Below are positions 54,744 through 64,000 of a stretch of DNA of 64,000 bases, one piece after another (position 1 is the first letter of the stretch; every line of letters begins with the position of its first letter). A model generated the notes under the pieces. The model was not told the DNA's origin, searched no databases, and saw nothing but the letters and a program-made list of their open reading frames with translations. The position numbers were made by a program, and so were the translations under genes. This stretch comes from Amycolatopsis japonica. GTDB taxonomy: Bacteria > Actinomycetota > Actinomycetes > Mycobacteriales > Pseudonocardiaceae. Location of the stretch: assembly GCF_000732925.1 (NCBI RefSeq), contig NZ_CP008953.1, forward strand, positions 3,348,001 through 3,412,000, read 5' to 3'.

Positions 54744-55871
54744 ATGCGGATTCTCTTCACCACCGTGCCCTTGTCCGGTCACTTCTATCCGTTGGTCCCA
54801 CTCGCGTGGGCCTTCCGGGCGCGTGGCCACGAGGTGCTGGTGGCCACCTCGGAGGAATTCGTGCCGACCGTACTCCGTGCGGGTCTGCCCGCGGTTTCGT
54901 GCGGATCGGCCATGGTGTCCTTGGTCGATTTGACCGCCGGCGATTCCGGGAACGGCGAGGAGTTGCGCCGGTACGCGCACGGTCGGGTCTTCGCCGAGAT
55001 CGCCGCCCGGAACCTGCCGGGAATGACGTCGCTGATGAACGCGTGGCGGCCGGACCTCGTCGTCAGCGAACGGGCGGAGCTCAGCGGGCCGATCGCCGCC
55101 GCGGTGAGCGGCGTCCCGTGGGTGGAATTCCACTGGGGGATCGCCGAACTCGGCGAGTACCGGATGGGGGGCGCCGACATCCTCGCCGGTGAGCTCGAAG
55201 CGCGGGGACTGGACGGATTGCCTCGGCCGGGCCTGGTGGTCAATCCCTGGCCGCGCAGCCTCCGGCTGCCCTACGCGGCCGATCACCGGAGCATCCGGCA
55301 CGTGTCCTACAACGGTGACGCCAGTGTTCCGTCCTGGGCCGTGGAACGCCAGGCCGGGGGCCGGATCTGCCTGACACTGGGCACCGTGGTCCCGCACCTG
55401 GAAAAGGGACGGTTCGCCCAGCTCGCGCTGCCCATCCTGGAACAGCTGGCCCAGTTGAACGTCGAGATCGTGGTCGCCGTCGACGCCGGGGTCGCCGCAT
55501 CGTGGCCACCGCTGCCCCCCGTCATCCGTCACGTGGGCCGGATGCCGTTGTCCCAGGTCCTCGCGGCTTGCGATCTCGTCGTACACCACGGTGGCCAAGG
55601 AACCGCGTTGACCGCACTCGAAGCGGGAATTCCCCAGCTGGTGCTGCCGCAGTTCGACGATCAGTTCGAGAACGCGGGCGCGGTGGCGGAATCCGGCGCC
55701 GGCATTCGGCTGCTTCCCGCGCAGATCACGCCGCAAGCCGTGGCCAAAGGCTGCTTGGAATTGCTGGGCTCGGTGAAGTTCGGCATCGCCGCATCGGATA
55801 TCGCCGCCGAAATGGCCGCCGCGCCCTCGCCGCTCGAGATCACCGGCATATTCGAAAAGCTGATCCCCTGA
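54744..55871 (+). CDS. Glycosyltransferase of the enediyne/macrolide (GT1) type
   Basis: A 375-residue GT-B enzyme. The catalytic histidine is H13 (SGHFYP), and the nucleotide-sugar site HHGGQGT at residues 281-287 is followed by DQFENA. The size and HHGGxGT motif match antibiotic glycosyltransferases such as CalG and SgcA6-like enzymes. It would attach a dTDP-deoxyamino sugar to the aglycone. The start is taken at the ATG with GGAGA upstream; 15 more codons are open. An inverted repeat (TAAAC...GTTTA, 54657-54682) lies in the leader. It is the first gene of the putative cluster. Confidence 0.87.
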   Translation: MRILFTTVPLSGHFYPLVPLAWAFRARGHEVLVATSEEFVPTVLRAGLPAVSCGSAMVSLVDLTAGDSGNGEELRRYAHGRVFAEIAARNLPGMTSLMNAWRPDLVVSERAELSGPIAAAVSGVPWVEFHWGIAELGEYRMGGADILAGELEARGLDGLPRPGLVVNPWPRSLRLPYAADHRSIRHVSYNGDASVPSWAVERQAGGRICLTLGTVVPHLEKGRFAQLALPILEQLAQLNVEIVVAVDAGVAASWPPLPPVIRHVGRMPLSQVLAACDLVVHHGGQGTALTALEAGIPQLVLPQFDDQFENAGAVAESGAGIRLLPAQITPQAVAKGCLELLGSVKFGIAASDIAAEMAAAPSPLEITGIFEKLIP

Positions 55872-55913
55872 AGGCACCGTTGGATACCGACCGAACGTGA
55901 AGGATGACGATCG

Positions 55914-57062
55914 ATGGTGAAGAAGTCCATGTTCAGCAATCCGCTTCACGTCGGACGCCCCAACGTGGGTGACCGGGATCGGTTCCTGGAGAGGATCAAC
56001 GGCGCCCTGGATCGGCTGTGGCTGGCCAACAATGGCCCCTTGGTCCGCGAATTCGAGGCCCGGGTGGCCGAAATGGCGGGAACCGAGCATTGCGTTCCGG
56101 TGGCCAACGCGACGACCGGTATCCAGATCGCGGCCAAGGCGGCCGGGCTCCAGCCGGGCGACGAGGTCATCGTTCCCTCGTTCACCTCACCCGCGACACC
56201 GCACGCCCTTCAGTGGGTCGGCCTGGTCCCGGTCTTCTGTGACGTGGAAGCCACGACGGCGAACGCCGACCCCGAACACGTCGAACAGCTCATCGGGCCC
56301 AAGACGCGCGCCATCGTCGGAGTCCACGTGTTCGGCCGCCCCTGCGAGATCGATCAGCTCTCGAAGCTGGCCGAATGGCACGGAATTCCGGTGTTGTTCG
56401 ACGCCGCGCAGGCCGTCGGGTGCACTTACAAGGGGAAACCGGTCGGCGGGTTCGGGTCTGCGGAGATCTTCTCGTTCCACGCCACGAAGTACGTGAACAG
56501 CTTCGAAGGCGGCGCCATCGTGACGAACGACGAGCGCATCGCGTCGCAGGCGAGGGTCATGCGAAACCTCGGGCTCGACGACAATCGCGAGACCGTGGCG
56601 TGCGGGATCAACGGGCGGATGACCGAGGCCGCGGCCGCGATGGGGCTGACCTCGCTCGAGGCCATGGAAGCGTTCATGGAGATCAACCGGGAGAACCACG
56701 AGTCCTACCGCGACGGGCTCGCGGGGCTTCCCGGTGTCAAGGTCTACGAACAGGCCGACGAGGAACGCGCGAACCATCAGTACGTGGTCATCGAGGTCGA
56801 CGCGGCGACCGCGGGAATCCACCGCGACGCGGTCCAGGCTGCCCTGACCGAGCACAACGTCCTCGCCCGTCCCTATTTCCATCCGGGCTGCCACATGATC
56901 GACCCGTACCGGGGGCGTCCGGACGTCCACACTCCGCTCCCGTTGCCGCGTACCGAGGCGCTGTGCGAGCGGGTGCTTTCGCTGCCGACCGGCACCGCCG
57001 TCGGTCCGGCCGAGATCGCGGCCGTCTGTGAGATCATCCGCGACGCCTGCGCGGGAGCGTAG
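55914..57062 (+). CDS. DegT/DnrJ/EryC1-family sugar aminotransferase
   Basis: A 382-residue fold-type I aminotransferase that makes an amino group on a dTDP-keto sugar. The Schiff-base lysine is K192 in SFHATK, D163 lies in FDAAQA, and the N-terminus fits CalS13/SgcA4-like enzymes in pattern. GAAGGA precedes the ATG. It follows the glycosyltransferase on the same strand by 42 bases. The regiochemistry (3-amino or 4-amino) cannot be decided; in known enediynes the dimethylamino group is usually at C-4. Confidence 0.88.
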   Translation: MVKKSMFSNPLHVGRPNVGDRDRFLERINGALDRLWLANNGPLVREFEARVAEMAGTEHCVPVANATTGIQIAAKAAGLQPGDEVIVPSFTSPATPHALQWVGLVPVFCDVEATTANADPEHVEQLIGPKTRAIVGVHVFGRPCEIDQLSKLAEWHGIPVLFDAAQAVGCTYKGKPVGGFGSAEIFSFHATKYVNSFEGGAIVTNDERIASQARVMRNLGLDDNRETVACGINGRMTEAAAAMGLTSLEAMEAFMEINRENHESYRDGLAGLPGVKVYEQADEERANHQYVVIEVDAATAGIHRDAVQAALTEHNVLARPYFHPGCHMIDPYRGRPDVHTPLPLPRTEALCERVLSLPTGTAVGPAEIAAVCEIIRDACAGA

Positions 57063-57107
57063 GCGTCGCGGCGACCGGATCTCAGGGACGCCTTCGACGG
57101 ACGAGTG

Positions 57108-57875
57108 TCACTTTCGGACGGCGACGAACAGGCCCGGCGCGTTATGCGGGTCCGATCCGAGCGTCCACGGAATGTCCAGGAGTTCGACCGAGCAGTCGGC
57201 TCGGTCGAAAGCCGACACGTACTCCTCCTGCGTGAACAGGTTCATGAGGAAGTAGTCCGTCCATTCGCGGAGACCCGTCGATTCGCCGACCACGAACTTG
57301 ATCTCCACCCTCGCGTGATCGCCTTCCCGTACGGAATGGGTGATCCGGGAGACGACCTTGCCGTTGTCGCGCACCAGATGCCCGCCGACATAACCGTCGA
57401 TGAACATGTCGGGGAACCACCCCGGCTCCACGACCAGCACGCCGCCGGGTACCAGGTGTGAGGCGAGGTTCTTGATCGCCACCTCCATGTCCTCACGCGA
57501 CTCCAGGCAGGCGATGGCGTTTCCGAGGCACACCACCGAGTCGAACTTCCGGCCGAGGTCGAAGGTCCGCATGTCGTCGAGCTGCAGGTTGACACCAGGC
57601 AGCCGGCGGCTCGCGACACCCAGCATCGCCGGCGCGATGTCGACGCCCTCGACGTGATCGAACGAGTTCGCGAACCTGGCCAAATGAGCGCCGGTGCCAC
57701 AGGCGACGTCCGCGAGGCTGGCCGCGGCCGGGAACCTGGACTGGATCAGCCGCGTGATGTCGTCGGCCTCGGTCTCGAAATTCTTGCCCCTGCTGCGAAA
57801 GACGAGATCGTAGAGCTCGGTGTGGTCTTCTCCCCAGCGGGCGTGCGTGTCCGCCCAGTCCTGCTCGTCAGTCAT
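57108..57875 (-). CDS. Sugar N-methyltransferase (DesVI/TylM1-like)
   Basis: A 255-residue SAM-dependent methyltransferase. The SAM motif is VACGTGAHLARF near residue 58 and the whole protein follows TylM1/DesVI, including DLVFRSRGKNFETEADDI at the start, VVEPGWFPDMFIDGYV and ITHSVREGDHARVE. Those enzymes methylate the amino group of dTDP-amino sugars twice. With the aminotransferase this predicts a dimethylamino (or methylamino) sugar. The ATG has GGAG upstream. It is convergent with the aminotransferase. Confidence 0.88.
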   Translation of the reverse strand: MTDEQDWADTHARWGEDHTELYDLVFRSRGKNFETEADDITRLIQSRFPAAASLADVACGTGAHLARFANSFDHVEGVDIAPAMLGVASRRLPGVNLQLDDMRTFDLGRKFDSVVCLGNAIACLESREDMEVAIKNLASHLVPGGVLVVEPGWFPDMFIDGYVGGHLVRDNGKVVSRITHSVREGDHARVEIKFVVGESTGLREWTDYFLMNLFTQEEYVSAFDRADCSVELLDIPWTLGSDPHNAPGLFVAVRK

Positions 57876-58074
57876 GGGATCTCCGTATTCCTTCGGCCTT
57901 GCCCGGACCGGGCAGGCTTCTTCGCCGATTGTCCGGCCGGTCTCGTCACCGCGGCCACTCGCGAACTGCGGTCCGCGTGACCGGCGCGATGGCGCATTGC
58001 GGAAGTTGGTGATGGCGGAAAGCCGTAACTAGCATCGATTTCGCCGGATGATCAAGAAAACGAGGGGTGAACAC

Positions 58075-59550
58075 ATGAATCGGCTACGAATTTGGCGGCG
58101 GATCTCGGCGACGATCGCGATAACGATGAGCGCGTTGCTCATCGGCGATTCCGCTTCCGCGGGCCGCCAGGCGGTCCGGACGTCCCGGGCGACCCCGTTC
58201 ACTCAAGGCTGCGCCGGCGAGCAAACGCCGACCACTTTGTACACGAACTCCGAGGTCCAGCCGACTCTCGCGATCGACCCCGGCGATCCGCGGCACCTGG
58301 TCGGCACCTATCAGGTCGATCGCTGGCAGGACGGCGGTTCGCGTGGCGCCGTGGTCGTGACCTCGTTCGACGGTGGCCGGTCGTGGTCGCGCTCGACTCC
58401 GCCCTTGACGGAATGCGCGGGCGGCGACGAGGAGAACGGCGGCGATTTCAAGCGAATACTCGACGTGTGGAGCACGATCGGGCTCGACGGGACCGTGTAC
58501 CTGACTTCGCTCACCATCACCGGAGGCCTTTTCAGCCCCGAATCCGAACACGCGATCCAAGTGACGAAATCGGCCGACGGCGGCCGAACCTGGAGCGATC
58601 CCGAAACCATCACCCGGGAAAGCGGCATGGCGCTGAACGATTTCCCGACGATCACCGCGGACCCGACGGACTCGCGCTACGTCTACCTCGCCTGGTGCCG
58701 GATAGGAACGCGGGACGACGGGCAGTCCACCGGGCCGATGTACCTGGCGAGAAGTTCCGACGGAGGGAAGACCTGGGAGCAGCCGCGTCCGATCTTCGAC
58801 GGCGGTCTCAACACCTACGGATTCGCCGGCAGCGTCGAGGTACTGCCGAACGGGGTCCTCGTCTTCCCCTTCACCGCCATCTCCGAGGATCCGGTGACCC
58901 ATGAGCGTGGATTCCAGGCCATGGCGATCCGTTCCGCCGACAAGGGGCGCACCTGGTCACAGCCGGTGAAGATCAGCGAAATGCGCTCGGCGGGTGTCAA
59001 GGACCCGGACACGGGAACTCCCATCGCCGAGGCGGGGTACTTCATGCACAGCGCCATGGACGGACGCGGTGTGCTGTATACGGCATGGCAGGATTCCCGG
59101 TTTTCGGGCGGTGCTCGCGACGCCGTCGTCGTCGCCCGTTCGACCGATGGCGGTCTCACCTGGTCGGAACCGGTCGCGGCCAGCGGTGACCCCTCGGTGC
59201 CCGCCTTTTCGCTCTCTCTGGCCGCTCGCCGTGACGGTACCGTCGGGGTGACCTATTACGACTTCCGGCCAAATACCCCCGACCCGGTGACGTTGCCAAC
59301 CGATTTCTGGCTGGCAACGTCCACCGATGCCGGTGCGACGTGGTCGGAGCGAAAGGTGGACGGCCCGTCCGATCTGGCCGTCGTCCCCAAAGCGGACATC
59401 TTCGGTCCGACACCGTATTTGTACATGGGTGCACAGTACGGACTCGTTGCCGGGAGGAACTCTTTTGTTTCGCTTTTCGCGAAACCCAATGATGGCGATC
59501 TCGACAACCGTACTGATATCTACGCGACGAGTATCTACGGGCGCGGGTGA
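58075..59550 (+). CDS. Secreted sialidase-like BNR-repeat propeller protein
   Basis: A 491-residue exported protein. The signal peptide is RRISATIAITMSALLIGDSASA. Six Asp-box motifs (SxDxGxTW type: SFDGGRSWS, SADGGRTWS, SSDGGKTWE, SADKGRTWS, STDGGLTWS and STDAGATWS) mark a six-bladed sialidase propeller. The catalytic arginine triad and tyrosine of true sialidases could not be confirmed. It is unusual in such a cluster, and might act on glycans outside the cell or just be a neighbouring gene. ATG 58075 is chosen because the signal peptide starts there; it lies about 199 bases from the divergent methyltransferase. Confidence 0.8.
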   Translation: MNRLRIWRRISATIAITMSALLIGDSASAGRQAVRTSRATPFTQGCAGEQTPTTLYTNSEVQPTLAIDPGDPRHLVGTYQVDRWQDGGSRGAVVVTSFDGGRSWSRSTPPLTECAGGDEENGGDFKRILDVWSTIGLDGTVYLTSLTITGGLFSPESEHAIQVTKSADGGRTWSDPETITRESGMALNDFPTITADPTDSRYVYLAWCRIGTRDDGQSTGPMYLARSSDGGKTWEQPRPIFDGGLNTYGFAGSVEVLPNGVLVFPFTAISEDPVTHERGFQAMAIRSADKGRTWSQPVKISEMRSAGVKDPDTGTPIAEAGYFMHSAMDGRGVLYTAWQDSRFSGGARDAVVVARSTDGGLTWSEPVAASGDPSVPAFSLSLAARRDGTVGVTYYDFRPNTPDPVTLPTDFWLATSTDAGATWSERKVDGPSDLAVVPKADIFGPTPYLYMGAQYGLVAGRNSFVSLFAKPNDGDLDNRTDIYATSIYGRG

Positions 59551-59600
59551 ATGAATGCCCGGTGCCGGCTTTTTCGCGCGGGGCGACACCGGGCATTCAT
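59551..59600. terminator. Bidirectional terminator
   Basis: ATGAATGCCCGGTG (59551-59564) pairs perfectly with CACCGGGCATTCAT (59587-59600) across a 22-base loop. It separates the convergent sialidase-like and apoprotein genes. Confidence 0.75.
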
Positions 59601-59614
59601 GACCCGTACCACGA

Positions 59615-60052
59615 CTAGTTGAACGAGATCGTCACCTTGCCGACGCTCGAGGCGTCCGCGTTGAACACGCCGACGGCGCACTGGGTCGAGTTGCAGTCGA
59701 CGGCGACCGTGCTGCCGTCCAGCTTGTGGCCGTTGAACTGCTTGACCACCGTCAGCGGGGTGGAGAAGGAACCGCTGCCGTCCGAGGTGACCTGGAGGAC
59801 CCTGCCCGCGTCTCCGAGGCATTCCGTGCCGACCTGGCCGCACTCGCCGATCCAGAACGTCGAGTTGGCGGCGAGGCCGGAACCCGAAACCTGCACGGTC
59901 GCGCCGTCGGCGAGACCCGAGGTGGGCGTCACGGAAACGGACTCGACGGTTTCCGCGTTGGCGACGGAATACGATCCGAGTGCCAATCCGGTGGCGAACA
60001 CCGCGATAGCGCCGACCTTGGCAATGCGGGAGGTGCCGTTCTTCACGCGCAT
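59615..60052 (-). CDS. Neocarzinostatin-family enediyne apoprotein
   Basis: A 145-residue precursor with a 33-residue signal peptide (cleavage after ANA) and a 112-residue mature domain. Mature length fits neocarzinostatin (113), C-1027 (110) and kedarcidin (114) apoproteins. The opening VSVTPTSGLADGATVQVSGSGL is the family signature, and four cysteines at mature positions 38, 45, 87 and 92 would form the two disulfides of the family. These proteins bind and stabilise a chromoprotein enediyne and carry it out of the cell. The ATG has GGAG about seven bases upstream. A 13-bp direct repeat lies in the leader. Apo-like proteins without a chromophore exist, so the link to an enediyne is inferred. 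Confidence 0.88.
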   Translation of the reverse strand: MRVKNGTSRIAKVGAIAVFATGLALGSYSVANAETVESVSVTPTSGLADGATVQVSGSGLAANSTFWIGECGQVGTECLGDAGRVLQVTSDGSGSFSTPLTVVKQFNGHKLDGSTVAVDCNSTQCAVGVFNADASSVGKVTISFN

Positions 60053-60075
60053 CGAAATACTCCGATCATTTTGGG

Positions 60076-60110
60076 GTGGATTTCTCAGAGGTGATGAGTG
60101 GATTTCTCAG
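60076..60110 (-). promoter_or_regulatory. 13-bp direct repeats in the apoprotein leader
   Basis: GTGGATTTCTCAG occurs at 60076-60088 and again at 60098-60110, with a 22-bp period (two helix turns). The sites lie 24-58 bases before the apoprotein ATG, as expected for two subunits of a regulator binding on one face of the DNA, or for an mRNA-leader element. Confidence 0.5.
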
Positions 60111-60458
60111 CACTTCCTTGTGCTGTCTCAACCTCATCTGCCAATTACTTTACACAGGTCGGTCAGTGAAGAACACACAAACAGGACGGGGTGGCAATCG
60201 AGGAGAAGTCGGACATTCCACGCTTGGTTCGATCTTGGGGAGGAGTGTCCGAAGTGGACTTTTGTCACCTGCGATGATCGTGAACGGTGATCGATTCCGG
60301 CCCTCGGTGGGCCGTTTTCGCGAAGTCGTCCGTCCCGCCGATCGAGATGGCGCGGAGGGGTGTGCCGCGGTGGCTTGACGTCTCTCGACTGTCCGCCGGG
60401 GGGGCATCTCGGGTGAACCTCGGCGTTCGATGACGGCGGGATCTCTCCGAGGCACGGT

Positions 60459-60507
60459 CGTGCGTGGAGGATTTGGGACGTTGACCGTCCCAAATCCTCC
60501 ACGCACG
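60459..60507. repeat. 22-bp perfect hairpin, GGACGTTG-apex family
   Basis: CGTGCGTGGAGGATTTGGGACG (60459-60480) pairs along its whole length with 60486-60507 around a TTGAC loop. It belongs to the same family as the internal hairpins of the MITE-like elements; the stem differs in sequence but keeps pairing. Confidence 0.75.
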
Positions 60508-60568
60508 AATCGCCTGGCCGGCACAGGGTTGACTGCTCGGTGTGTCGAGGCGGCGCACGGGTCTCGGA

Positions 60569-60623
60569 CGTCGAGCGGGGAGGATTACGGACGCTCAACG
60601 TCCCGAATCCTCCCCGCTCGACG
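60569..60623. repeat. 25-bp hairpin, GGACGTTG-apex family
   Basis: A 25-bp stem (60569-60593 with 60599-60623) with two mismatches surrounds a CTCAA loop; read in reverse the apex is GGGACGTTGAGCGTCC. Adjacent to the 60459 hairpin, it gives two tandem family members in opposite orientation. Confidence 0.72.
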
Positions 60624-60662
60624 CTGCCAGCTGGTGTCCTTTGTAGACACCGGACATGACAA

Positions 60663-60702
60663 GAGGGTGCCCCATGGAACATCCGTCCCATGGGGCACCC
60701 TC
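60663..60702. terminator. Terminator of the O-methyltransferase gene
   Basis: GAGGGTGCCCCATGG (60663-60677) pairs perfectly over 15 bp with CCATGGGGCACCCTC (60688-60702) around a 10-base loop, 18 bases beyond the minus-strand stop. Confidence 0.75.
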
Positions 60703-60720
60703 ATGACACCGGGGGTCCGG

Positions 60721-61413
60721 TCAGCGCTTCCTGGCGATCGTGAGCCCGTCCGCGATGGGCAGCATCACCGTCTCGAACCGATCGTCGGCCGCGAGCCTGG
60801 CGTTGAACACGCGCAAGGTCTCCGCGCACCGGCGCGGGAGCCCCGGCTCCGCGAGTTCGGGGTCCAGGACCAGACCGTCCAGCAGTACATTGTCAGCAAC
60901 CAACAAACCACCTCGGCGCAACAGGGGGACAGCCGCCTCGTAGTACTTGAGGTAGTTCATCTTGTCGGCGTCGACGAAGACGAGATCGGCGACGGTGTCT
61001 TCGGCCAGGTTCTGGAGTGTCCGCCCGGCCGGCCCGAGCCGGAAATCGATACGGTCCGCCACGCCGGCACGCTCCCAGTGCTCCCGCGCGAGCTCGATCC
61101 ATTTGTCGGTCACGTCGCACGTGATCACCCGCCCGCCGGCGGAAAGCCCGCGAGCGAACGCCAGCGCGGAAAGACCGGTGAAGGTTCCGACGTCGACGAC
61201 GGTCGTCGCCTGCAGTAGCCCGGTCAGCATCGTCAGCAGCTGCAACTGCTCGGCGGGGACCATCATGCCCGCCGCGTCACCGACCGCTTCGGTGCGCTCG
61301 ATCAGCGCGCTCACCGCGGGATCGGGCGGTGTACAGGACTCGAGCAGGTAGTCACGCGTGGCCTGGTCGACCGAAACGTGCTTGAGCTCGGCGAACGGGG
61401 TGCTGCTACCCAT
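60721..61413 (-). CDS. SAM-dependent O-methyltransferase, family 3 type
   Basis: A 230-residue methyltransferase of the catechol/caffeoyl-CoA type (family 3). VVDVGTFTGLSALAFA is the SAM motif, VFVDADKMNYLKYYE carries the metal-binding aspartate, and LLVADNVLLDGLV follows. Such enzymes methylate catechols or aromatic hydroxyls with a divalent metal. In enediyne clusters O-methyltransferases act on the aromatic side group. The ATG has GGGAG upstream and gives the usual N-terminus; an earlier start adds 46 odd residues. Confidence 0.85.
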   Translation of the reverse strand: MGSSTPFAELKHVSVDQATRDYLLESCTPPDPAVSALIERTEAVGDAAGMMVPAEQLQLLTMLTGLLQATTVVDVGTFTGLSALAFARGLSAGGRVITCDVTDKWIELAREHWERAGVADRIDFRLGPAGRTLQNLAEDTVADLVFVDADKMNYLKYYEAAVPLLRRGGLLVADNVLLDGLVLDPELAEPGLPRRCAETLRVFNARLAADDRFETVMLPIADGLTIARKR

Positions 61414-61624
61414 CTTTGCTCCCTGGTGGTCGGTACGGGTCACCCGGGTGGGACACCGCGTTGGCCGAGCACACCGGGCCGGGCAATCGTCACCGGAGTT
61501 CGAGGGCGAGCGCGTCCTTAACCTTGCGCGACCCACGACCCGAGAGACCACGACAGGGAGCGCAGGAAGACGGCGGGCCGGGCGGATTCACCCGCCCGGC
61601 CCGCCGTCGCCCGAAAGGGAGCCG

Positions 61625-62224
61625 TTATTCGTTGGTCTCCACGGGGTAGATGAGGTGCGTGACCTTCTTGCCCTGGATGACGCGGGGTTCGCCGAATTTC
61701 CTGGGAGCGGAGCCGAGCGTGTCCACGAAACGGACTCCGTCGCCGAGCATGTACGGCACGAGGTCGAGGCGGACCTCGTCGAGCAACCCCTCGTCCAGCG
61801 CTTCACGGGCGACGATGCCCGGGCCCACGCCGACGTTCTTGTCCCCGGCGACCGCCTTGGCCTGGTCGATCGCGGCCTTGACGCCGCCCTCGGTCACGAA
61901 GACGAACTCGTCGCTTTCGGGGGCCCAGCCTTCGGGTACCGAATGGGTGACCACGAAGACCTGCACGCGCATGGGGTGCTGTCCGCCCCACCCGTCCATG
62001 CCGTCGAACTGGTTTCGCCCGACGACCAGGGCACCGTAGCCCTCGATCATGTCACGGACATAGTCGGCGGACGCCTCGGCGACCTTGTACGACCGGCCCG
62101 ACGCGGTGGGCACCTCGACATCGCCGGCACGGCACCACGCGAAAAGGTACTCAAAACCCCCGTTCTCCGGACCGGCGATGAAACCGTCCAGCGACACGGA
62201 CGCTTGAGTCGCCACCTTTGGCAT
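61625..62224 (-). CDS. Dihydrofolate reductase family (RibD C-terminal-like) protein
   Basis: A 199-residue RibD C-terminal/DHFR-like protein, with ASVSLDGFIAGPENGG at the start, ALVVGRNQFDGMDGWGG and LLDEVRLDLVPYMLGDGVRF near the end. It probably uses NADPH to reduce a small molecule. The ATG has AAGGGA upstream and 20 extra upstream codons are unlikely. It is on the minus strand with the methyltransferase, 211 bases upstream of it, and divergent from the halogenase. A paralogue is at 24211-24771. Confidence 0.83.
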   Translation of the reverse strand: MPKVATQASVSLDGFIAGPENGGFEYLFAWCRAGDVEVPTASGRSYKVAEASADYVRDMIEGYGALVVGRNQFDGMDGWGGQHPMRVQVFVVTHSVPEGWAPESDEFVFVTEGGVKAAIDQAKAVAGDKNVGVGPGIVAREALDEGLLDEVRLDLVPYMLGDGVRFVDTLGSAPRKFGEPRVIQGKKVTHLIYPVETNE

Positions 62225-62438
62225 GAGAAATCCCTTCTTGCGCGATGTATCGAGCACTTCTCGATCGCTCAACCCTGGCACCATGACCGGTCGTTGTCCA
62301 CTTCTCCCGTGCTCTCTTCGTATCGAAATGGTTTACCCCGCCGCACCCGTGGCGGGGTCACAACTCAGGAGAAGCTCCGTGCTCCGTCTCCGTGCGACGA
62401 TCCAGATCTGACCCTCGAGTTCAGGACGGAGATCTATT

Positions 62439-63941
62439 GTGAGTGCCGAGACCGCTGGGTTCGACGTCGTCGTGGTGGGTGGAGGCCCGTGCGGTTCGGC
62501 GGTGTCGACGTTGGTGGCGATGCAGGGACATCGGGTCTTGCTGCTGGAGAAGGAGAAGTTCCCGCGCTATCAGATCGGGGAATCGCTTCTCCCGGCCACG
62601 GTGCATGGAGTGTGCCGTCTGCTGGGCGTGTCGGAGGAACTCGACAAAGCGGGGTTCATGCTGAAACGCGGAGGAACGTTCCGCTGGGGCCGCAATCCGG
62701 AACCCTGGACGTTTTCTTTCGGAATTTCTTCGAAATTCGTGTCGGAGGCGTCGACGGCCTATCAGGTGGAGCGGATGCGCTTCGACCAGATTCTGCTGGA
62801 CAACGCTCGCCGTCGTGGGGTCGAGGTTCGGGAGGAGTCCTCGGTCGCCGATGTCATCGAGGATGCCGACGGCCGGGTCTGCGGCGTGCGGTACACGGAC
62901 GCCGACGGTGTCACCCACGAGGTGTCCGCACGGTTCGTCGTGGACTCCTCGGGGAACGGGAGCCGGATCCACAAAAAGGTGGGGGGACAGCGGCGCTATT
63001 CGGAGTTCTTCCGCAATCTGGCGTTGTTCGGCTATTTCGAAGGCGGCAAGCGACTGCCCGCGCCGAACGAGGGGAACATTCTCGCGGCGGCCTTCGATTC
63101 GGGCTGGTTCTGGTACATCCCGCTGACCGACACGTTGACCAGCGTCGGCGCGGTGCTCCACCCGGACGCGCTCGAACGCGCTCAAGGGGACAAGGAGCAG
63201 GCCCTGCTCGACCTGATCGCCGAATGTCCGCTGATCGCGGACTATCTCGCGGACGCGCGGCGGGTCACCAGTGGTCCCTACGGCGAGGTCCGGGTCCGCA
63301 AGGACTACTCCTACATCCAGGAGAAGTTCTGGCGGCCGGGGCTGATCCTCGCCGGCGACGCGGCCTGCTTCATCGACCCGGTGTTCTCCTCGGGCGTGCA
63401 CCTGGCGACCTACAGCGCGCTGCTCGCCGCCAGGACGATCAACACCGTGCTGGCGGGTACCGCGGGGGAGACCGAGTCCTGCGAGGAGTTCGAAGCGCGG
63501 TATCGCGCCGAGTATGCGAGGTTCCACGACTTCCTGGTGGCGTTCTACGACATGCACGAGGACGAGTCGTCGTACTTCTGGAGGGCGAAGAAGGTCACCG
63601 GGAACGCGGCCTCGGACGTCGAGTCGTTCGTGGAACTGGTCGGGGGTGGCTCGTCGGGTGAGGGAGCCCTGATCGACGCCAAGGCCTACCTGGGGAAGCG
63701 GGCACCCGCGTTCCAGGAGCTTTCCGACGCGGTGGAACGTCCGGTGCTGGTCGCGGGAGAGGACCGCGACCTGTTGAAGACCGAGCTCGCCCGCTCGGTG
63801 TCCCGTGAGGGCACCCGAATCCAGGTTCAGGCCAGCCTGGGGGCGAACGCCGACGAGCGGACCCCGGTCCGTGACGGCGGGCTGGTGCCTTCCGCCGACG
63901 GAATGCACTGGATCCGGCCTGTCCAGCAGCAGGCGAGCTGA
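62439..63941 (+). CDS. FADH2-dependent halogenase, phenol/PCP-substrate type
   Basis: A 500-residue flavin-dependent halogenase. The FAD motif is GGGPCGSA, the halogenase WxWxIP motif is W223-F-W-Y-I-P228, and the likely catalytic lysine is K76 (LKRGGTF). The N-terminus and the PVFSSGVHLATYSALLAA segment match BhaA/VhaA of glycopeptide clusters and SgcC3-like enzymes of enediyne clusters. Those enzymes chlorinate a tyrosine or beta-tyrosine tethered to a carrier protein. The GTG has AGGACGGAG upstream. The protein is divergent from the RibD-like gene and is followed 14 bases later by another open frame, so an operon continues past the window. Confidence 0.92.
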   Translation: MSAETAGFDVVVVGGGPCGSAVSTLVAMQGHRVLLLEKEKFPRYQIGESLLPATVHGVCRLLGVSEELDKAGFMLKRGGTFRWGRNPEPWTFSFGISSKFVSEASTAYQVERMRFDQILLDNARRRGVEVREESSVADVIEDADGRVCGVRYTDADGVTHEVSARFVVDSSGNGSRIHKKVGGQRRYSEFFRNLALFGYFEGGKRLPAPNEGNILAAAFDSGWFWYIPLTDTLTSVGAVLHPDALERAQGDKEQALLDLIAECPLIADYLADARRVTSGPYGEVRVRKDYSYIQEKFWRPGLILAGDAACFIDPVFSSGVHLATYSALLAARTINTVLAGTAGETESCEEFEARYRAEYARFHDFLVAFYDMHEDESSYFWRAKKVTGNAASDVESFVELVGGGSSGEGALIDAKAYLGKRAPAFQELSDAVERPVLVAGEDRDLLKTELARSVSREGTRIQVQASLGANADERTPVRDGGLVPSADGMHWIRPVQQQAS

Positions 63942-63955
63942 AGGGAATCACGGTC

Positions 63956-64000
63956 ATGTCAGTGACAGAGTCGACGGCCGGTAGCGTGCACCGGTTTCCG
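63956..64000 (+). CDS. Start of a further coding region (3' truncated)
   Basis: An ATG with GAAGGGA upstream begins 14 bases after the halogenase stop and is open to the end of the window (MSVTESTAGSVHRFP, 15 residues). It is too short to identify. Its position suggests it is cotranscribed with the halogenase and belongs to the same cluster. Confidence 0.6.
   Translation, partial: MSVTESTAGSVHRFP

Follow-up and report, generated by a model that had tools for sequence, protein, structure and literature searches.

A decorating locus of a probable chromoprotein enediyne pathway in Amycolatopsis japonica, 3.0 Mb away from the candidate core cassette

The window analyzed here is a stretch of 64,000 nucleotides of Amycolatopsis japonica (C1:3348001-3412000), whose genome of 9.05 Mb is assembled in two contigs of 8,961,318 and 92,539 bases. 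Near its right end begins a group of genes that extends from 54744 to about 99170, the right boundary being a matter of judgement. With good confidence, this group can be regarded as the locus that decorates a chromoprotein enediyne, probably of the nine-membered kind, the core of which would be made by an enediyne polyketide synthase (PKSE) cassette located 3.0 Mb away. The gene content, the motifs of five proteins, the position of both loci, a relative in which the system is largely contiguous and the recurrence of the separation in other species were observed directly; from them we infer the cooperation of the two loci, the order of the steps and the product. Positions are given in window numbering (genome position minus 3348000), also beyond 64000, unless a contig is indicated.

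Two gene sets at two locations

A codon-usage script called the genes on the window and the sequence downstream of it, taken as one piece. Six pathway-type genes are grouped at 54.7-63.9 kb and the locus continues to about 99.2 kb (Table 1). Since these six genes stand together and the same pathway continues over the next 35 kb, their grouping is not due to chance. The first-pass annotation of the window had named these six types, all of which are borne out by Pfam matches, and had likened them to the periphery of a C-1027/kedarcidin-type pathway. It was right about the kind, to which the continuation adds a beta-tyrosine branch, and the tyrosine aminomutase and efflux genes that it expected beyond 64000 are indeed present (g082; g064 and g075). 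Its count of eight fitting genes has to be reduced to six. The BNR-repeat protein and the RibD_C/DHFR-like protein were excluded because they have almost no relatives in the top 80 named loci carrying a related aminomutase, obtained from one scan and called the aminomutase loci below (none for the former and a single one, at 40%, for the latter).

The peripheral enzymes were compared with solved structures. The aminomutase g082 scores 836 bits against the tyrosine aminomutase 2OHY/2RJR and 337 against the next other enzyme. The corresponding values are 385 and 143 for the free-standing condensation enzyme g063 (type II condensation enzyme 4ZNM), 909 and 639 for the hydroxylase g083 (4OO2), and 502 and 465 followed by 180 for the epoxide hydrolase g077 (epoxide hydrolases 5F4Z and 4I19). 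The best solved match of the halogenase g062 is the halogenase 3E1T (552 bits). We take 2OHY/2RJR, 4ZNM, 4OO2, 5F4Z, 4I19 and 3E1T to be SgcC4, SgcC5, SgcC, NcsF2, SgcF and CndH, respectively. Scores that are far higher for C-1027/neocarzinostatin-type enzymes than for general relatives in the PDB were counted in favor of the decorating role. The motifs ASG of the aminomutase, HHTAVDG of g063 and WFWYIP of the halogenase are intact, as are the carrier serine of g080 and the four cysteines of the apoprotein, and the genes of the locus are open frames of ordinary length with a third-position GC of 0.79 or more. At the level of gene presence, g082, g081, g080, g062, g083 and g063 are predicted to constitute a beta-tyrosine branch of the C-1027 type, in which an SgcC3-like chlorination of carrier-bound beta-tyrosine is proposed for g062. 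Relatives of g062, 69-79% identical, are found in 10 of the 80 aminomutase loci, and homologues of the O-methyltransferase g060, 64-75% identical, in six (L114, L121, L127, L148, L155 and L172).

The apoprotein g059 belongs to the neocarzinostatin family and matches neocarzinostatin with 64 bits, C-1027 with 52, actinoxanthin with 42, macromomycin with 35 and kedarcidin with 28 (phmmer). Its cysteines lie at residues 71, 78, 120 and 125, its N-terminus resembles a signal peptide by eye, and its AlphaFold model is all-beta (mean predicted local distance difference test score 81). Family and cysteines are those of a chromoprotein apoprotein, with two putative disulfides and putative secretion and ligand binding.

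The second gene set was reached by a whole-genome search with PF00109, which gave 30 matches and pointed to an open frame of 1946 aa at 6.44 Mb, gene-called as A041 (1939 aa). This PKSE lies 2.99 Mb beyond the right-hand limit of the decorating locus, in the region C1:6420194-6456829, and combines ketosynthase (KS), acyltransferase, ketoreductase and dehydratase domains (Pfam) with acyl carrier protein (ACP) and PPT-like motifs. The genome contains, away from the locus, a PKSE accompanied by an E3/E4/E5/E10 cassette, and since UnbU gives one match in the genome, this is its sole UnbU-bearing cassette. The labels E1-E10 used here are those that we assume from gene order. The identities with the C-1027 producer CB02366 are 53% for the PKSE, 67% for UnbU, 57% for UnbV, 59% and 62% for the DUF1702 proteins, 49% for E6, 61% for E7, 63% for E8, 78% for E9 and 79% for E10; with the loci of CB02366 and S. 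globisporus JCM 4378 together, the core proteins span 49-79%, the PKSE 53-54% and an HxlR-type protein 43-46% over 105 residues. The E10-type thioesterase A040 is closest to the ACP-polyene thioesterase 4I4J (249 bits, against 205 for CalE7 and 127 for DynE7), presumably SgcE10. In the C-1027-type loci, the second DUF1702 protein, which we take to be E2 from its place in the gene order, is 61-62% identical to A023. According to section 8 of PMC5181780, nine-membered enediynes are recognized by the presence of E2 and the absence of R3. The same source also presents Streptomyces CB02366 as a C-1027 producer in which deletion of the PKSE abolishes production (PMC5181780). Scanning ten cassette proteins against NCBIfam yielded no name specific to enediynes. 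The ratio of nonsynonymous to synonymous substitution rates of the cassette genes, compared with those of the congeneric genome G025, is 0.05-0.17, which indicates purifying selection.

The two sets look complementary, and this is the main argument for their cooperation. No halogenase, epoxide hydrolase or sugar gene was seen on reading A021-A056, and genome-wide searches placed neither an apoprotein nor an aminomutase at the cassette. Conversely, gene calling found no PKSE in the window, in 109 kb downstream or in 100 kb upstream. In the same sequence, three PKSEs and nine core proteins used as tBLASTn queries revealed no core-gene remnant; what they matched was an unrelated polyketide synthase (PKS) of 1399 aa (31-32%, near 3.255 Mb) and, from one P450 to another, a sequence 28% identical. 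A PKSE next door was consequently rejected. The first-pass annotation had correctly seen no PKS in the window. The PKSE and the E3-E5 and E10 genes that it anticipated just past 64000 are absent from the adjoining sequence, which is literally the outcome (no PKSE cassette in the adjoining 100 kb) that it had named as its own refutation. Core and decorating genes are not contiguous in one cluster here, and what had been read as the edge of such a cluster is best understood as the decorating locus of a split pathway.

Table 1. Genes of the decorating locus (window numbering) and of the distal core cassette
Gene	Product	Position	Strand	Remarks
g055	GT1 glycosyltransferase, putative aminosugar transferase	54744-55871	+	EryCIII-like N and C domains (Pfam); left end of the locus
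g056	sugar aminotransferase, DegT/DnrJ/EryC1	55914-57062	+	PF01041, E 1.1e-106
g057	putative sugar N-methyltransferase	57108-57875	-	Methyltransf_25 (Pfam); S-adenosylmethionine (SAM) methyltransferase
	BNR-repeat protein	58126-59550		open frame with Pfam match
g059	neocarzinostatin-family apoprotein	59615-60052	-	PF00960, E 3.5e-22, 78.9 bits (cut-off 25)
g060	O-methyltransferase	60721-61413	-	PF01596, E 3.5e-51
	RibD_C/DHFR-like protein	61625-62224		open frame with Pfam match
g062	FAD halogenase	62439-63941	+	Trp_halogenase, E 1e-74
g063	free-standing condensation enzyme	63956-65311	+	first bases (63956-64000) in the window
g064	MFS	65348-66877		
g065	P450	67050-68279		
g066		68298-69377		
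g068	P450	70406-71530		
g069	class III aminotransferase	71723-72970		
g070	nonribosomal peptide synthetase (NRPS)	72996-75434		
g071	B12 radical SAM	75431-77344		
g072	acyl-CoA dehydrogenase	77334-78467		
g073	thioesterase	78604-79272		
g075	MFS	80928-82463	-	
	second RibD_C/DHFR-like gene	82830-83333		
g077	epoxide hydrolase	83532-84623		
g078	glycosyltransferase	84659-86071		
g079	FAD	86099-87430		
g080	peptidyl carrier protein (PCP)	87549-87827	-	
g081	NRPS (condensation, adenylation, PCP)	87944-91171		
g082	tyrosine aminomutase	91223-92854		
g083	HpaB-type hydroxylase	93016-94590	-	
	animal-type haem peroxidase	94630-96687		L006:1630-3687
g086	FAD (peripheral, FAD2)	97773-99170	-	
A039	flavin reductase			
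A040	E10-type thioesterase			
A041	PKSE			
A043	GMC-type oxidoreductase			
A044	DUF5987			
A045	P450			
A046	UnbU-like			
A047	UnbV (UnbV_ASPIC)			
A048, A023	two DUF1702 proteins			

The names of g070, g075, g076 and g086 come from sequence and BLAST rather than from the Pfam scan, and an acyltransferase is also among the continuation genes, listed between the thioesterase and the second MFS gene. No regulator gene was recognized across g055-g086; in the cassette region, SARP, HxlR, AraC and LuxR-type regulators and an acyl-CoA carboxylase subunit were named by eye. Among the sugar genes, g055 has relatives 54-55% identical in the enediyne-type clusters of two congeners, G025 and G005. The aminotransferase g056 is merely 25-27% identical to its counterparts in these clusters, and its homologues in G069, G041 and G047 reach 74-75%, adjoining an N-methyltransferase, a glycosyltransferase and an FAD enzyme. 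For g057, the identity is 59-60% in G025/G005 and 68% in G069/G041/G047.

Several other observations were made along the way. Counterparts of the block g070-g073 (72996-79272), 50-68% identical, lie beside the aminomutase in Planotetraspora (L147), and those of g071-g073, in the same range of identity and without the NRPS, in Streptosporangium (L173). The haem peroxidase, on the right side of the locus, has a Tat-like leader by eye and no relative in the 80 aminomutase loci. A second aminomutase-like MIO enzyme, 65% identical, is encoded at C1:4840478-4842076 (L094), with like copies (63-66%) in five congeneric genomes; it was rejected as a pathway member, belonging to a different cluster around which no enediyne genes were recognized. 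A second and weaker neocarzinostatin-family protein (C1:2233400-2233816, L059, E 3.5e-8) is surrounded by small proteins resembling WXG100/ESX types by eye, and BLAST of its neighbors gave no enediyne-type genes. In Nonomuraea, apoprotein-family genes (L159:14750-15178 and L160:14777-15205) lie near homologues of the aminomutase, the hydroxylase, the N-methyltransferase and the sugar aminotransferase; no PKSE was seen in these 21-kb loci. Among the 30 PF00109 matches, gene calling also covered three regions, at 3.21, 4.90 and 5.15 Mb, in which no core-type neighbors were recognized by eye. Two similar-looking five-gene sets were noticed by eye at C1:3208097-3220660 and 5139226-5152192, each with a pair of large PKSs, of about 2100 and 1340-1420 aa, an ACP-like protein of 99 aa, and one hydrolase-like and one glycosyltransferase-like gene. 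Finally, a TOMM cyclodehydratase of the YcaO/SagD type, which has a leader-binding domain, adjoins the cassette together with a ThcOx-like oxidase (C1:6451295-6455053, L041:11295-15053). Homologues of this pair (61-69%) also lie near the cassette of G069, an odd association of an enediyne core with enzymes of the type that modifies ribosomally synthesized peptides (RiPP-type).

Linkage in relatives and within the genus

A largely contiguous version of the system is found in Actinoalloteichus caeruleus DSM 43889 (L155, L272-L276), where 76 kb (C1:1.530-1.606 Mb) combine a PKSE (61%) and homologues of E10, A023, UnbV, E7, E8, E9 and UnbU with most window-gene counterparts. The identities are 77% for the P450 g065, 74% for the hydroxylase and the aminomutase, 72% for the halogenase and FAD2, 71% for the class III aminotransferase, 67% for g066, 64% for the O-methyltransferase, 63% for the P450 g068 and the PCP, 62% for FAD1, 57% for the condensation enzyme, 54% for GT2, 53% for MFS and 50% for NRPS2; the sugar aminotransferase is 25% identical. 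Micromonospora ALFpr18c likewise has a local PKSE along with an O-methyltransferase (75%), a halogenase (75%) and an aminomutase (76%). As both organisms keep these relatives together with a PKSE, most window genes belong to an enediyne-type set. More generally, UnbU was found in all 50 genomes searched among those of the 80 aminomutase loci, a sample that leans to enediyne loci because it was picked for carrying more of the block, the other 30 being outside the search. In nine of the 45 cases measured, UnbU was not placed within 80 kb of the aminomutase on one contig: L117, L122 and L128 approach contig ends, L134 carries another UnbU on an unmeasured contig, and the minimum distances are 79 kb in L144, 88 kb in L158, 165 kb in L146, 188 kb in L141 and 426 kb in L119. 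The latter is Amycolatopsis arida (L119, L215), where E6 and part of E10 were observed beside the aminomutase and a different contig, no less than 426 kb off, carries the PKSE, UnbU and E7-E9.

The separation was then surveyed in 80 congeneric genomes (Amycolatopsis in the GTDB sense, own genome included). UnbU is present in 68 of them and reaches 95% identity or more in 19, among which A. japonica. In a tree of 44 PKSE sequences including the outgroup, the A. japonica cassette groups with those of G025, G069 and G028 (support 1.0), inside Amycolatopsis. In the cassette regions of G025 and G060, upwards of 30 genes, among them those of the ordinary flanks, correspond to the A. japonica region with protein identities of 76-100%; decorating genes were not recognized in the 40 kb read there. 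The PKSE frame of the conserved G060 cassette looks interrupted, by assembly or by mutation (L204-L205, G060:C1:6993816-7000241); gene calling gave it 1194 aa and placed next to it a frame of 480 aa that is unrelated.

Decorating-type genes lie away from the cassette in 19 of these 19 genomes, 15 of which were annotated and four in part or by coordinates only. They are on the same contig in eight (G000, which is A. japonica, G002, G014, G025, G049, G060, G063 and G076), at about 0.8 to 6.4 Mb as numbered, and on other draft contigs in 11. The loci are of various kinds. In G025, the locus is of the beta-tyrosine/sugar kind, includes an epoxide hydrolase (61%) as well as a UvrA-like gene (by eye) and is located 4.8 Mb from the cassette; the 80 kb read around it showed no PKSE. 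G060, G023, G076, G063 and G007 all have an apoprotein (38-41%) and FAD2, halogenases being seen in G060; four of these loci are 20-kb stretches only. A 1763-aa PKS accompanies an apoprotein (42-44%) and an epoxide hydrolase (48-49%) in G033 and G037, and a 1746-aa PKS an epoxide hydrolase (57-58%) and FAD2 in G034, G042 and G074. G044 combines a hydroxylase (76%), an epoxide hydrolase (64%), a condensation enzyme (40%) and a CoA ligase (61% to L131_16). Decorating-type loci of other kinds were annotated away from the cassette in G049 and G014, as was one of two loci in G015; G002, G013 and G052 are represented by coordinates of apoprotein, FAD2 or epoxide hydrolase matches only. Second cassettes with a local FAD2 exist in G013, G052 and G063. 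Epoxide hydrolases under about 58% identity are not specific, and this enzyme was rejected as a genus marker, 11 matches in the A. japonica genome passing E 1e-60. A sugar mini-cluster (aminotransferase 74-75%, N-methyltransferase 68%) is 3.9-4.0 Mb from UnbU in G041 and G069, and on another contig in G047. Outside the 19-genome clade, a FAD2 copy occurs within 50 kb of UnbU in 26 of the 32 FAD2-bearing genomes, G041, G069 and G047 being among the other six.

FAD2 tracks the core marker: with the cut put at 46% identity, a value settled on once the list had been viewed, it is present in 49 of the 68 UnbU-positive and in none of the 12 UnbU-negative genomes (Fisher p 2.3e-6), and at the search's own cut of E 1e-90 in 51/68 versus 1/12 (p 1.9e-5). 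The p values of this survey are rough, related genomes not being independent. An empty insertion site could not be demonstrated, since the flanking gene g088 has matches in 3 and g053 in 16 of the 80 genomes.

Core and decoration do not share the same relatives. The halogenase of A. japonica is 75-79% identical to those of four Micromonosporaceae loci, including Micromonospora ALFpr18c and M. zingiberis, 69-70% to three more and 58% to that of the congeneric G025; the PKSEs of ALFpr18c and M. zingiberis, however, belong to the other main branch of the tree and are 55% identical to the A. japonica enzyme. This disagreement between PKSE and halogenase implies different histories, and the decoration was probably acquired separately from the core.

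Proposed pathway and alternative explanations

In the pathway proposed here, the distal PKSE and the E10 thioesterase would produce a linear polyene, which E2-E9 would convert into the core epoxide; the SgcF/NcsF2-like epoxide hydrolase g077 would turn this epoxide into a diol. Tyrosine would be turned into beta-tyrosine by g082 and loaded on the carriers g081 and g080, on which it would be chlorinated by g062, hydroxylated by g083 and probably O-methylated by g060, before g063 joins this unit to the core. The aminotransferase g056, the N-methyltransferase g057 and the glycosyltransferases g055/g078 would finish and attach the aminosugar, g069-g073 possibly providing a further acyl group. The pumps g064/g075 would ensure export and the apoprotein g059 would bind and protect the product.

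A number of points weigh against this proposal. Nothing convincing in the way of a shared promoter motif emerged from 21 + 17 upstream regions compared with 77 controls. The condensation domain motif of g081 is degenerate and g059 is distant from known apoproteins. In the two stretches of A. japonica compared with the C-1027-type loci (155 + 68 genes, both loci), to which these searches were confined, no homologues were found of the SgcJ-like, 393-aa acyl-CoA-dehydrogenase-like and benzoxazolinate-type CoA-ligase-like (L131_16) genes of L131, nor of the early NDP-sugar-like genes of G005/G025. The A. caeruleus stretch has no match to the epoxide hydrolase, the N-methyltransferase, the apoprotein or g071-g073, and aminomutase and UnbU are linked (80 kb or less, same contig) in 36 of the 45 cases measured among the 50 aminomutase genomes. 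In the genus, 11 of the 19 separations are between different draft contigs, so that linkage is possible in any single one; apoprotein-family matches do not clearly track UnbU (33/68 UnbU-positive versus 2/12 negative genomes, p 0.058), and G045 and G058 carry an apoprotein-family gene without UnbU.

Some of these gaps would be accounted for if the locus were a leftover, a complete cluster having stood here or been acquired and then lost its PKSE cassette, with useless decorating genes and a distal cassette serving another product. The local PKSE of A. caeruleus and ALFpr18c, the missing SgcJ-like and sugar genes and a periphery apparently of another lineage than the cassette fit such a loss. 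It is nevertheless unlikely, given the well-kept frames and high third-position GC of the locus, the intact motifs of five of its proteins and the lack of any core remnant in the window, 109 kb downstream or 100 kb upstream; moreover, separate decay is a poor explanation for decorating-type loci that recur apart from the cassette in a clade that keeps it. The locus might also work alone and make a non-enediyne beta-tyrosine glycoconjugate, the apoprotein and epoxide hydrolase being recruited for another ligand: g070-g073 and g081 could build a scaffold of their own and some neocarzinostatin-family proteins do occur outside any recognized enediyne context. The presence of UnbU in every aminomutase genome searched, with the bias mentioned, and the closeness of the epoxide hydrolase and free condensation enzyme to solved enzymes that we take to be those of C-1027/neocarzinostatin make this quite improbable. 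That a misassembly or a recent large rearrangement split a contiguous cluster in this strain only is scarcely credible. The cassette surroundings match those in G025 and G060, no decorating genes were recognized there over the 40 kb read, the type of decorating locus varies from one species to another, and the relationships of the PKSE differ from those of the halogenase. Nonetheless, PMC5984834 describes large-scale rearrangements in A. japonica that change where clusters lie; its main text, in the part consulted, does not mention enediynes.

A broader arrangement of one core and many decorators is slightly more probable than not; in it, the cassette would be a vertically inherited, syntenic fixture of an Amycolatopsis clade, and unlinked, exchangeable decorating clusters would act in trans. 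Beta-tyrosine/sugar, halogenase/apoprotein, iterative-PKS acyl and sugar-only decorators would then lead related species to different enediynes from the same core locus. If the decorating locus and the distal cassette do cooperate, core and decoration evolve separately, which would explain the apparently undecorated Amycolatopsis cassettes, and natural decoration swapping would become directly testable. Enediyne mining inspects the genes around the PKSE, and enediyne clusters are often 80-120 kb long, according to PMC5181780; in this genus, such mining would come upon a bare cassette and overlook the decorating genes, or would discard decorating genes because no PKSE accompanies them. The literature searched, which left out most subscription journals, gave no account of an enediyne pathway split in this way. 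PMC11237095 places enediyne genes of Amycolatopsis BCA-696 at coordinates 3,372,806-3,960,062, and PMC11446937 contributed references only.

Comparison with known systems

The C-1027 (lidamycin) loci of CB02366 and S. globisporus JCM 4378 resemble the present system and share the apoprotein family. With CB02366, the aminomutase is 75%, the hydroxylase 73%, the MFS protein 53%, the PCP 49% and the condensation enzyme 43% identical, beside the 49-79% of the core. C-1027 is nevertheless encoded by one cluster, with aminomutase and UnbU 30 kb apart, in contrast with two loci 3.0 Mb apart, and it has CoA-ligase-like and SgcJ-like genes without homologues in the A. japonica stretches; the O-methyltransferase, the B12 radical SAM block and the haem peroxidase are, on the other hand, unlike C-1027. 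Kedarcidin, whose apoprotein matches g059 with the lowest of the scores given above, and maduropeptin also carry a halogenated aromatic acid and an aminosugar and are encoded by contiguous clusters. The nearest whole relative is the A. caeruleus cluster, which keeps PKSE and core in the same 76 kb and carries a 1752-aa PKS as well as the SgcJ-like and 393-aa genes missing here. Within the genus, the amycolamycin (acm) system of Amycolatopsis sp. HCa4, compared by its description in PMC8037709, combines a chlorinated aromatic acid, an aminosugar and an E-type core in about 76 kb of contiguous DNA, unlike the split loci of A. japonica.

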